Notes under the pieces: generated by a model
Databases searched by the model: none
Seen by the model: only the letters and a program-made list of their open reading frames with translations
Told to the model about the DNA's origin: nothing
Shown: positions 16,750 through 20,712 of the stretch, piece by piece
Layout of the letters: every line of letters begins with the position of its first letter
Position numbering within the stretch: the first letter of the stretch is position 1
DNA from: Candidatus Brocadia sp.
GTDB taxonomy: Bacteria; Planctomycetota; Brocadiia; Brocadiales; Brocadiaceae
Assembly (NCBI GenBank): GCA_021646415.1
Contig: SOEU01000013.1
Span: forward strand, 1-64,000
Direction of reading: 5' to 3'
DNA length: 64,000 nt
Position numbers and translations under genes: made by a program

Positions 16750-17322
16750 TTGAAGAAGATCGTAGCTATACTTATCATCGCTCTGTTTTGTGTTGCGCAA
16801 GCGGCTTGGGCGAATCCTTCAAGCCCCCGCGTTCGACTGGAAACCAATAAAGGTGCCATTATCCTGGAACTTGATTCAAAAGCTGCTCCGAAAACGGTTG
16901 AAAATTTTCTCTGCTATGTCAAGGATGGATTTTATAATGGTACCATCTTTCATCGGGTGATAAAAGGGTTTATGATACAGGGTGGAGGCTTAACTGATGA
17001 TATGCGGGAGAGACCTACAGGGTCCCCGATCGCAAATGAGGCTGACAATGGACTCAAAAACCGGCGCGGTACAGTGGCTATGGCACGCACCATGGATCCC
17101 CACTCCGCCACTGTCCAATTCTTTATCAACACCGTGGATAATGCTTTCCTTGACCATAAAGGGAAAACCACCAATGGCTGGGGCTATTGCGTATTTGGTA
17201 AAGTTGTAGAGGGTATGAATGTGGTGGATACGATTGAAAACCTGCCTACCACAACCAAGTCAGGATTTCAGGATGTTCCTACTTCTCCTGTCGTCATTGA
17301 AAAGGCAATGACGCAGGAATAA
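16750..17322 (+). CDS. Secreted peptidyl-prolyl cis-trans isomerase, cyclophilin type
   Basis: A 190-residue cyclophilin acting on proline peptide bonds in the periplasm. A signal peptide spans about 1-22 (ends AAWA). The core shows [13 protein letters not shown] with the catalytic arginine, and FFINTVDN with the substrate-pocket residues. The TTG start is preferred because AAGGAGG lies just upstream. The gene stands alone, between the tRNA and the J-domain gene. Confidence 0.92.
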
Positions 17323-17563: not shown

Positions 17564-18778
17564 ATGAAGGGATTAATCGGTTTTATCCTAATAATTATTA
17601 TTTTTTTGCTTCTTTTGCTGTTGGCTTTTGGGTTGCTTAGAGTGGCACTGATAACCTTACCAGCTTGTGGTGTAGCAATATGTGTAATGCTTTTGACCCT
17701 CTATTTATTTCGTGCCGTCAAAATCCATCGTCTGAACTCTCACGGAACTTTAGCAAAGGTAGTGATAGTTCAGTTTGACGGACAGAAATTGAATTGGGAT
17801 CTGGAAGAATCTCAAATTGAATTATATGCAAAAACAAAATTGGCGACGTTCTTAAGTATTATCTTAGGGATAACATCTATCTGGTCAATCCTGAGTATAA
17901 TTTATAAAAAAGGTGCCTTTAATGGTCTAACGGGGTTTTCTTCCGATGTTAATCTGGCAATAGGATATATTATATCAGGAGTTGTCCTCATTGTAACAAT
18001 ATTCAAAGCAAAGCCTGGAGAAACCCTCAAAGATGCAATATGGGAGCGGGCTAGTCATTTGGTTCGTCAGACAAACACTCAGCTTGAAAGAATCAAGGAG
18101 TTATGCTCATTGGAAACTTCGATCAAATCGATTGCCTATCAATTGAAAGTCTCTTTTCCAATAGATTTTAAAACAGAAATTCAGGAGTTTGTCAATACTC
18201 ATAAAAACGAACTTTTATCTGATACTTCCGCAGTGAATAATTTGATTATAGAAAATATTAAACGAGCCGAAGAAGACAGAATATATTTAGAAAAAGCAAA
18301 CAATCATTATCGCGCTGCAATGAAACTATACACAGTTGTAGCTATTGAAGTAAACTGGACTGGCAGCATGCCACTTATAAAGGAAATGGAATATGATTAT
18401 GAAGGTTTAACTTCTGAAAATCTAAAATCCCTTTTATGGAATAGAAAATGGGATGATTTTCATGATATAGTAAACGAAATTATGAGGGATCTTCAGCGAC
18501 TGAGAGAACTGGCCATAAAATATCAGGAGGAGGGGTATAAAGAAGGGGCAAATGGTTATAAGAAAGAGACGGACGAAGAGAAAGCATACCGTATTATGGA
18601 AATTTCACCTGCCGCATCAGATGAACAAATTAAAAAGGCTTATAGGGAGTTGGTACTTAACTATCACCCTGACAATGCAGAACAAACCACTCTTGGCATA
18701 AAAAAATTGGCGGAAGAACGCTTCAAGGAGATTAACTGGGCATATGATTTCTTGAAAGGAATTCGAAACTTCTGTTAA
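17564..18778 (+). CDS. Membrane-anchored J-domain (DnaJ-like) protein
   Basis: A 404-residue protein. Two N-terminal membrane segments (about 3-26 and 27-48) and two more hydrophobic stretches (about 90-112 and 126-147) anchor it. A helical middle (about 160-330) has no recognised domain. The C-terminal J-domain (about 344-404) contains AYRIMEISPAASDEQIKKAY and the HPD motif (YHPDNAEQ) needed to stimulate DnaK-type Hsp70. Membrane anchoring with a C-terminal J-domain recalls DjlA-type co-chaperones, but the rest is not similar. The VWA gene follows 12 bases later, implying co-transcription and a shared job. Confidence 0.8.
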   Translation: MKGLIGFILIIIIFLLLLLLAFGLLRVALITLPACGVAICVMLLTLYLFRAVKIHRLNSHGTLAKVVIVQFDGQKLNWDLEESQIELYAKTKLATFLSIILGITSIWSILSIIYKKGAFNGLTGFSSDVNLAIGYIISGVVLIVTIFKAKPGETLKDAIWERASHLVRQTNTQLERIKELCSLETSIKSIAYQLKVSFPIDFKTEIQEFVNTHKNELLSDTSAVNNLIIENIKRAEEDRIYLEKANNHYRAAMKLYTVVAIEVNWTGSMPLIKEMEYDYEGLTSENLKSLLWNRKWDDFHDIVNEIMRDLQRLRELAIKYQEEGYKEGANGYKKETDEEKAYRIMEISPAASDEQIKKAYRELVLNYHPDNAEQTTLGIKKLAEERFKEINWAYDFLKGIRNFC

Positions 18779-18790
18779 GGAATGAAATAC

Positions 18791-19450
18791 ATGGATGATA
18801 AGAAATCTATAATTAATTTAACGAATACGGATAATACTCCCGCAAGCTTTCAGCAAAAAAATTGGGTCAAAAAACTTGTGGCGGCTTCAGGAAAACCGGT
18901 AGTGCCGCGAACATCGGGAAAGATTGTGTATCTTCTCGTGGATTGCTCAGGAAGCATGGCAGAAGGTAACAAAATAGCGCAGGCAAAAAAGGGTGCCATC
19001 GGCTTTGCCAAAGAAGCGCAAAGGATGGAATACTCTGTGGGTCTCATCCAATTTGCATCGCATGCTGAATCCGTACTTGAACCACAGAATGAACTTACAA
19101 GTCTTAATATCAAAGTTGAAAAACTATCAGCCAATGGTTCAACGAACATGGCGGCTGCTATCCAAATAGCAGGAGATAAACTTTTAGAGAAGGCTGGTGA
19201 GAAAGTAATTTGTGTTGTGACAGATGGAATGCCAGACGATAAAAAAGCCACCCTTGAAGCCGCGAATGAAATAAGAATGCAGGGAGTCGAAATTATGACC
19301 ATTGGAACTGACGGTGCTGATAAAGAGTTCCTCGAAGAACTTGCGACACGAAAAGAACTTTCACTGAAGGTCCTAAGAGACCAACTTGAGCGGGGCATTG
19401 TTTCAATGGCGAAGATGTTGCCTCAAAAAATGGATAGCCAAAAACTATAG
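18791..19450 (+). CDS. von Willebrand factor A domain protein
   Basis: A cytoplasmic VWA protein of about 219 residues with a complete MIDAS signature: DxSxS in LLVDCSGSM, the threonine in NGSTNMAAAI and the aspartate in VTDGMPDD. Such domains bind partners through a metal ion. I moved the start to the second ATG (18791) because AAGGA lies 9-10 bases upstream of it but directly abuts the first ATG at 18782. It follows the membrane J-domain gene by a dozen bases. No signal peptide or membrane segment is seen. Confidence 0.85.
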   Translation: MDDKKSIINLTNTDNTPASFQQKNWVKKLVAASGKPVVPRTSGKIVYLLVDCSGSMAEGNKIAQAKKGAIGFAKEAQRMEYSVGLIQFASHAESVLEPQNELTSLNIKVEKLSANGSTNMAAAIQIAGDKLLEKAGEKVICVVTDGMPDDKKATLEAANEIRMQGVEIMTIGTDGADKEFLEELATRKELSLKVLRDQLERGIVSMAKMLPQKMDSQKL

Positions 19451-19547: not shown

Positions 19548-19586
19548 CCAAAATCCCCATTTTTAAAATGGGGATTTTGGTTTATT
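19548..19586 (+). terminator. Rho-independent terminator after the J-domain/VWA pair
   Basis: A 13-base perfect stem (CCAAAATCCCCAT with ATGGGGATTTTGG) around a 7-base loop, followed by TTTATTTTTTT. It ends the J-domain/VWA transcript about 100 bases after the VWA stop. Confidence 0.8.
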
Positions 19587-19623: not shown

Positions 19624-20712
19624 ATGGGTTTAAATTGTGGCATTGTTGGATTACCGAACGTCGGAAAATCCACGATCTTTAATGCATTGACCTCTGCCAA
19701 GGCTGCCTCGGCAAATTATCCCTTTTGTACCATTGATCCCAATGTGGGTGTGGTTGCCGTACCGGATAGGCGTCTGGATAAGATAGCAGAAATAATTACT
19801 ACTGAAAAAATTGTACCCACAACCGTTGAATTTGTAGATATCGCGGGGTTGGTGAAGGGTGCCAGTCAGGGAGAGGGTTTGGGAAATCAATTTTTGGGGC
19901 ACATTAAGAATGTTAATGCCATTTTGCATGTGGTGCGTTGTTTTGAAAAAAGTGATATCATTCACGTAGAAGGTGGGATACACCCAATCCGTGATATCGA
20001 GATTATCAATACGGAATTAATCCTTGCAGATATGGATACGGTAGAAAAAAGGCTATTAAAGAACGAGAGACTTTTGAAAACCGGTGATAAAAATATTATT
20101 GCTGCCGTTGGCGTACTAAAAAAAGTCAGGGATGGCCTCAATGGTAATAAACCTGTCAGGTTATTATCTTTATCGGATGAGGAGAGAAAGCTCATCGAGG
20201 ATATGCATTTAATGACTGAAAAGCCGGTATTATATGTTGTTAATGTCTTTGATTTTGAAAAAGATAAGCAATACATTGAAGAAGTCGGTAATTATGCAAA
20301 ACAGGAAAATTCAAAATGCGTGGTCATTTCAGGGGACATCGAATCAGAGATAGCACAGATGGAATCAACTGAAAGAAAGACGTATTATGAGGAGATGGGG
20401 ATAAAAGAGTCTGGACTGGAAAAGTTGATTCGAGAAACGTATCATCTATTAGGTCTTATTACCTATTTCACCGCAGGTCCAAAAGAAGTAAAGGCATGGA
20501 CGATTACACAGGGAACGAAGGCGCCGCAGGCCGCGGGGGTGATTCATTCTGATTTTGAGCGAGGATTTATCTGCGCTGAAACATACAACTATAATGATCT
20601 TATTGCGATGGGTTCCGAACACAAGGTAAAAGAAAAAGGACTTTTAAGACGTGAGGGAAAGGAATACGTTGTGAAGGATGGGGATATTATGCATTTCAGA
20701 TTTAATGTGTGA
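19624..20712 (+). CDS. ychF: Redox-regulated ribosome-binding ATPase YchF (Obg family)
   Basis: A universally conserved P-loop protein that binds ribosomes and, unlike most Obg relatives, prefers ATP. It has G1 GLPNVGKST at about 8-16, DIAGLVKGAS for switch II, a helical insertion (about 130-200) and a C-terminal TGS domain (TITQGTKAPQAAGVIHSDFE). Length 362 is typical. A good GGAGAAGG ribosome site precedes the ATG. It is monocistronic between two terminators. Confidence 0.95.
   Translation: MGLNCGIVGLPNVGKSTIFNALTSAKAASANYPFCTIDPNVGVVAVPDRRLDKIAEIITTEKIVPTTVEFVDIAGLVKGASQGEGLGNQFLGHIKNVNAILHVVRCFEKSDIIHVEGGIHPIRDIEIINTELILADMDTVEKRLLKNERLLKTGDKNIIAAVGVLKKVRDGLNGNKPVRLLSLSDEERKLIEDMHLMTEKPVLYVVNVFDFEKDKQYIEEVGNYAKQENSKCVVISGDIESEIAQMESTERKTYYEEMGIKESGLEKLIRETYHLLGLITYFTAGPKEVKAWTITQGTKAPQAAGVIHSDFERGFICAETYNYNDLIAMGSEHKVKEKGLLRREGKEYVVKDGDIMHFRFNV

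Follow-up and report, generated by a model that had tools for sequence, protein, structure and literature searches.

A membrane protein with a J domain and a protein with a von Willebrand factor A (VWA) domain are encoded by two closely spaced genes (here referred to as J and V) in a genome of Candidatus Brocadia, and the question raised by this locus is whether these genes form a functional unit or whether they adjoin each other incidentally. A first-pass annotation of the window (viz. the whole stretch of 64,000 nucleotides that was analysed) had suggested that the two proteins could form a two-component quality-control or assembly device, and that the pairing should be regarded as incidental if the genes occur apart in most relatives. 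The coordinates of the features discussed below are collected in Table 1.

Table 1. Features of the J-V locus (positions within the window)
Feature	Coordinates	Strand	Residues	Basis or remark
Cyclophilin-type PPIase gene, upstream of J	16750..17322	+		Pfam
J gene	17564..18778	+	404 aa	ORF list and Pfam
J helical region			149-322	Sequence/alignment; followed by a variable linker (323-338)
Most conserved part of J	18299..18529	+	246-322	Alignment
J domain (C-terminal)	18584..18757	+		Pfam DnaJ match
V gene	18791..19450	+	219 aa	Soluble VWA protein
C-terminal helix of V	19343..19423	+	185-211	Alignment
Intrinsic terminator	19548-19580	+		Hairpin, then T run; between V and ychF
ychF GTPase gene, downstream of V	19624..20712	+		Pfam

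Characteristics of the J and V proteins

J had been described as a polytopic membrane protein with an intact HPD motif in a C-terminal J domain, and this description is borne out. The Pfam DnaJ model matches residues 341-398 (E 2.6e-15; 56.7 bits, cut-off 27.8), no second Pfam domain is accepted, and the residues H368-P369-D370 are invariant in all 10 intact J sequences. With a J domain above the Pfam cut-off and its HPD motif, J is a member of the J-domain proteins (Hsp40 superfamily). The hydropathy profile has three peaks, at approximately residues 4-22, 95-113 and 129-147, of which the first opens a hydrophobic run reaching about residue 49; as this run (1-49) may be one or two helices, J has 3 or 4 transmembrane (TM) segments. 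An AF2 model of J from an 8-row alignment (mean pLDDT 45, pTM 0.30) is too poor for assigning fold or topology. However, because the J domain must meet the cytoplasmic DnaK and because V carries no hydrophobic signal, a cytoplasmic C terminus appears to be the sensible topology for J. The recruitment of an Hsp70 to the membrane, which was also part of the first-pass annotation, would follow from the HPD-bearing J domain.

V matches the Pfam VWA model with 69.2 bits (cut-off 23.8), and the residues of its MIDAS motif (DxSxS...T...D; viz. D51, S53, S55, T118 and D145) do not vary among the 10 sequences compared. AF2 gives V a VWA fold (mean pLDDT 73), which Foldseek matches to many VWA structures, including BatB, and V is thus a member of the VWA superfamily, as defined by this fold with a MIDAS. 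No signal peptide or TM segment was seen in the V sequence. The parts of the two proteins that are most alike between the copies from genera g1/g7 and g6 lie elsewhere: identity is 79% for J residues 246-322 (70% for the J domain) and 79% for V residues 185-211 (63% for the VWA core). These two segments would be the likely contact surfaces, and that of V is a candidate partner-binding element. Alignment A1 was made without L007, in which J is frameshifted, and alignment A2 without L003, in which V is cut by a contig end. The frameshift in L007 (6344-6348; B. carolinensis, G003) is located near codon 115 of J and is either real decay or an assembly error; V is intact in this strain.

The junction of the two genes is tight. 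The ORF list opens V at 18782, which would leave a gap of 3 nt after J; however, the ATG at 18791, which is located 12 nt past the J stop codon and is preceded by AAGGA, is the better start, because it is common to the relatives, unlike the ATG at 18782, which is not conserved in all of them. The spacing of 12 bases noted originally is therefore the one retained, and the distance from the J stop to the V start is 1-16 nt in seven relatives whose junction is intact. The strong terminator reported after the VWA gene is also present, about 98 nt beyond the V stop codon and hence outside the interval 17564-19450 to which the annotation was attached; it has a stem of 15 pairs (-22.6 kcal/mol, z -5.1 versus shuffled sequences), and a similar hairpin with a T run is found in five of the six relatives that have the V-ychF interval, the exception being L001. 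Upstream of J, no conserved motif is supported, the alignment being too divergent outside the start region, and the heat-shock element CIRCE (exact consensus) is absent from the window. From this arrangement we infer that J and V are co-transcribed.

Conservation of the gene pair and its genomic locations

Among 33 genomes of the family, a close relative of J is present in 11 (E 1.3e-146 or better; the split second piece of the frameshifted J of G003 was not counted separately), the remaining matches being at the level of the J domain (E 1.1e-8 or weaker). V is present in the same 11 genomes (E 1.1e-28 or better), and its other matches are weak VWA matches (E 8.9e-5 or weaker). By coordinates, V lies directly downstream of J in all 11 carriers (in G012 it is cut by the contig end), and there is no case among the 33 genomes of J or V occurring alone. 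The 22 genomes without the pair include G005, in which polA, cyclophilin and ychF also have no match, and G011, in which both contigs end at the site; due to these missing flanking genes and contig ends, the two are not clear absences. A further genome in this set (G026) is 58% complete. In any case, the shared absence of J and V is by itself weak evidence, because two neighbouring genes may be lost together for purely mechanical reasons.

Stronger evidence is provided by the locations of the pair, which occupies three unrelated genomic addresses. In most carriers of genus g1, the gene order is polA (on the minus strand), cyclophilin, J, V and ychF. In the two carriers from g6, the pair is located beside a globin gene, with a beta-propeller protein or an aminotransferase as the other neighbour, and ychF is on another contig. 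In g7 (G022), the pair follows hflK-hflC, its other neighbour is an ORF of 83 aa, and ychF is about 0.5 Mb away. Taken over all carriers, the cyclophilin-J adjacency is kept in 7 of 11 and the V-ychF adjacency in 7 of the 10 that are testable, whereas the J-V adjacency is kept in 11 of 11. The flanks thus serve as a built-in control, and since the flanking adjacencies break and that of J and V never does, chance adjacency is unlikely; the genes do not occur apart in the family, and the pairing should not be interpreted as incidental. For the same reason, viz. that their adjacency to the pair breaks, cyclophilin and ychF are rejected as members of the unit. Nei-Gojobori dN/dS values are 0.09-0.16 for J (11 of the 12 pairs listed, one being saturated), and the 11 pairs for V range over 0.14-0.25; by this measure both genes are under purifying selection. 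The J-V pair is, in our assessment, very probably a functional unit.

The pair has also been lost, probably in one step. The genome G006 has a YchF 94% identical to that of the window but lacks J and V; in it, about 21 codons of the 3' end of V remain before a flipped ychF (L084 6325-6389), and the cyclophilin gene is now about 343 kb away, with homology ending shortly after it. Based on this remnant and on the displaced cyclophilin gene, one rearrangement probably removed J and V together. In G020, the synteny of the globin side is present and the pair is cleanly absent. This clean absence indicates that the J-V pair is dispensable, as does its loss in G006, which is closely related to the window genome. 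Further, in the trees for both J and V, the copies from G022 fall among those of g1. When g1 was forced to form one clade, the AU test gave p values of 0.081 for the J protein, 0.304 for V, 0.0585 for both and 0.0255 for J DNA (the YchF tree, without G009, covers 15 of 16 genomes). A transfer of J-V as a unit is therefore suggested by trees whose evidence is borderline, and it should not be taken as established.

Beyond the family, 294 sampled Planctomycetota genomes yielded V (E 1e-15 or better) in 6, all of them family members, and full-length J in those same 6, with 4 more matches at the J-domain level. One scan of a contig collection, using peptide patterns derived from J, found 13 loci, viz. 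8 with full-length J and 5 with the J domain only; V is adjacent at all 8 of the former (one V is cut by a contig end and one J is frameshifted). The close relatives carry the names Candidatus Brocadia, Candidatus Kuenenia and, in one case, Planctomycetia bacterium, in keeping with an anammox bacterium of the Brocadia type as the source of the window. Outside this family, only domain-level matches were found, and outside Planctomycetota a scan derived from J may miss distant relatives.

Comparison with known systems

The DjlA-type J proteins (DjlA, DjlB and DjlC) are membrane-attached and, like J, carry a J domain on such a protein; in DjlA the J domain is C-terminal, as it is in J. However, DjlA has a TerB domain and a single TM segment, whereas J has 3-4 TM segments and a VWA gene partner, and TerB was not found by Pfam in the middle region of eight J sequences. 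The assignment of J as DjlA is rejected by the NCBIfam equivalog model (45 bits, cut-off 162), and E. coli DjlA aligns in hhalign with J residues 316-403 only; the alignment with DjlC is weak and is likewise limited to the J region. DjlA has been connected with a trans-envelope pump, viz. with its assembly and/or its capacity (PMC10754441).

According to PMC7159879, VWA domains serve MoxR AAA+ proteins as co-chaperones that capture peptides, and RavA-ViaA is reported to interact with a respiratory complex (PMC3893208). The MoxR AAA+/VWA modules (RavA-ViaA, NorQ-NorD and the VMAP ternary systems; same sources) resemble J-V in that a VWA protein is encoded with a would-be ATP-driven remodelling partner, in some cases one for membrane enzyme complexes. 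However, J-V is not a module of this kind: at none of its three addresses does an AAA+ gene, including MoxR, adjoin the pair, and the partner of V would be a DnaK-recruiting J protein. An Hsp70 gene was likewise not found beside the pair. The window genome (3.8 Mb) has four DnaJ-domain matches, J included, one canonical DnaK locus, and one weaker Hsp70-family match, which we take to be an MreB-type actin-fold protein.

The closest remote VWA protein to V is encoded on a cyanobacterial plasmid (98.4%). The VWA proteins of such clusters in Gloeothece and Tolypothrix are the best remote V matches (59-65 bits); they differ from V in being larger, with about 24-31% identity. Both plasmids (L090 and L091, respectively) encode several VWA proteins, an ARC6-IMS protein and a beta-lactamase-fold protein, and L090 also encodes FHA and PP2C proteins. 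The ARC6-type neighbour was considered as a J-like protein and rejected: Pfam detects an IMS domain in it, but a J domain neither in it nor in any other of the proteins scanned near these VWA genes.

J and V belong to the known J-domain and VWA superfamilies, and their combination was not found described. A literature search for anammox with DnaJ and von Willebrand returned no such pair; the search for J-domain proteins with VWA domains returned only unrelated yeast work, and the passages available from literature on related terms contain no such pair. In the yeast case, the VWA domain of Ste5 with the Hsp70 Ssa1 (PMC10584130), we read the relationship as client-type quality control of Ste5 and not as a J-VWA device. 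A fusion of a domain like the cysteine-rich domain of DnaJ to GTPases, in vWA/FtsZ-like operons, is noted in PMC2875224.

Proposed function and alternative explanations

The reading that we regard as the most likely, to which we give somewhat less than an even chance, is that J-V is a lineage-specific, DnaK-recruiting membrane module in which V is an adaptor or client-binding subunit. In anammox bacteria, J and V would be transcribed together and function as a single unit, with J as an integral membrane co-chaperone whose cytoplasm-facing C-terminal J domain would bring the single housekeeping DnaK to the membrane. The cytoplasmic V would dock on the helical region of J or on a client, via the Mg-dependent face of its MIDAS and/or its C-terminal helix, and would select or hold a membrane-associated client (an assembly intermediate or a damaged complex) during remodelling by DnaK. 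Because no MoxR gene adjoins J-V, DnaK is the obvious ATP-driven partner; the contact between J and V, the stimulation of DnaK and the handling of a client are all inferred. The two-component quality-control or assembly device of the first-pass annotation is, in this form, plausible. Against this reading stand the dispensability of the pair, the J frameshift in B. carolinensis (which may be an assembly error) and the absence of CIRCE from the window. If J and V do cooperate, then VWA adaptors would not be tied to AAA+ motors but could be coupled to Hsp70 via a membrane J protein dedicated to this task; such a division of labour was not found described in the literature searched, and J-V would likely be a new DnaK address within anammox cells. 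Anammox bacteria rely on an internal membrane compartment and on many metal and haem enzymes; the assembly and repair of their complexes is a standing question, for which J-V supplies two concrete, testable proteins. A more specific proposal, which we consider improbable, is that J-V is a co-chaperone machine built on a VWA protein, with the membrane J protein and DnaK in place of the usual MoxR AAA+ motor, the MIDAS of V capturing a peptide of a membrane-bound (e.g. anammoxosome respiratory) complex to which J delivers a pulling Hsp70. If true, this machine would correspond to RavA-ViaA or NorQ-NorD, but with Hsp70 as its source of power.

The membrane module has to be weighed first against a role in signalling, in which V would be a metal-sensing VWA protein similar to TerY/YegL, J its membrane platform, and a release of DnaK gated by the MIDAS metal would, as part of a stress response, alter the activity of a target encoded elsewhere. 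V resembles the TerY-P triads in being a small stand-alone MIDAS VWA protein (PMC11090510), hhalign gives its profile 98.1% with a TerY-like VWA of a Polaromonas plasmid cluster and 96.0% with E. coli YegL, and in E. coli K-12 yegL is located near yegD (Hsp70-family), yegI (kinase) and pphC (phosphatase). However, these matches are at the superfamily level and the cyanobacterial plasmid protein noted above is closer to V than either. Further, no PP2C phosphatase, Ser/Thr kinase or TerD is encoded among the neighbours scanned, for which reason J-V is rejected as a TerY-P triad, and V has no match to TerY_C, which the Polaromonas relative possesses. A signalling role is thus unlikely.

It is also conceivable, with a still smaller likelihood, that V is a dedicated regulator or substrate of the co-chaperone J, its C-terminal helix filling the helical region of J and switching it off, without any client-binding role. 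The two most conserved segments, which are both located outside the catalytic signatures, agree with such a relationship, and the tight gap between the genes would permit coupled synthesis; however, the invariant MIDAS suggests that V itself binds a ligand.

We attach little weight to reading J-V as an anti-phage cassette or a mobile accessory one. Its patchy spread (11 of 33 genomes), its new addresses and the position of the G022 copies among those of g1 are in keeping with such a cassette. However, neither J nor V matched any family of the PADLOC anti-phage models, and J residues 1-330, i.e. its part outside the J domain, had no match in plasmids or phages. V had none in phages either; its relatives in plasmids (6) and in viral contigs (2, with none for J) are weak VWA matches. 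The neighbours of the pair are ordinary metabolic genes, the proteins evolve slowly, and the tree evidence for transfer is, as noted, borderline. Lastly, although bacterial genes on the same strand are often separated by short gaps, an incidental adjacency of two unrelated genes is contradicted at the family level by the survival of J-V in every carrier while both flanks break, and it is the least probable of these explanations.

Other neighbouring genes

The cyclophilin-type PPIase encoded upstream of J in the window has an N terminus resembling a signal peptide; in most of the g1 carriers its gene separates polA from J, and in other genera it is located elsewhere. The hflK-hflC genes adjoin the pair in G022 only, and hflKC is therefore rejected as a standing partner. 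In this genome they are located directly upstream of J-V (L081 6462-8392), and hflC, which is present in 1 of the 33 family genomes, was possibly acquired recently.
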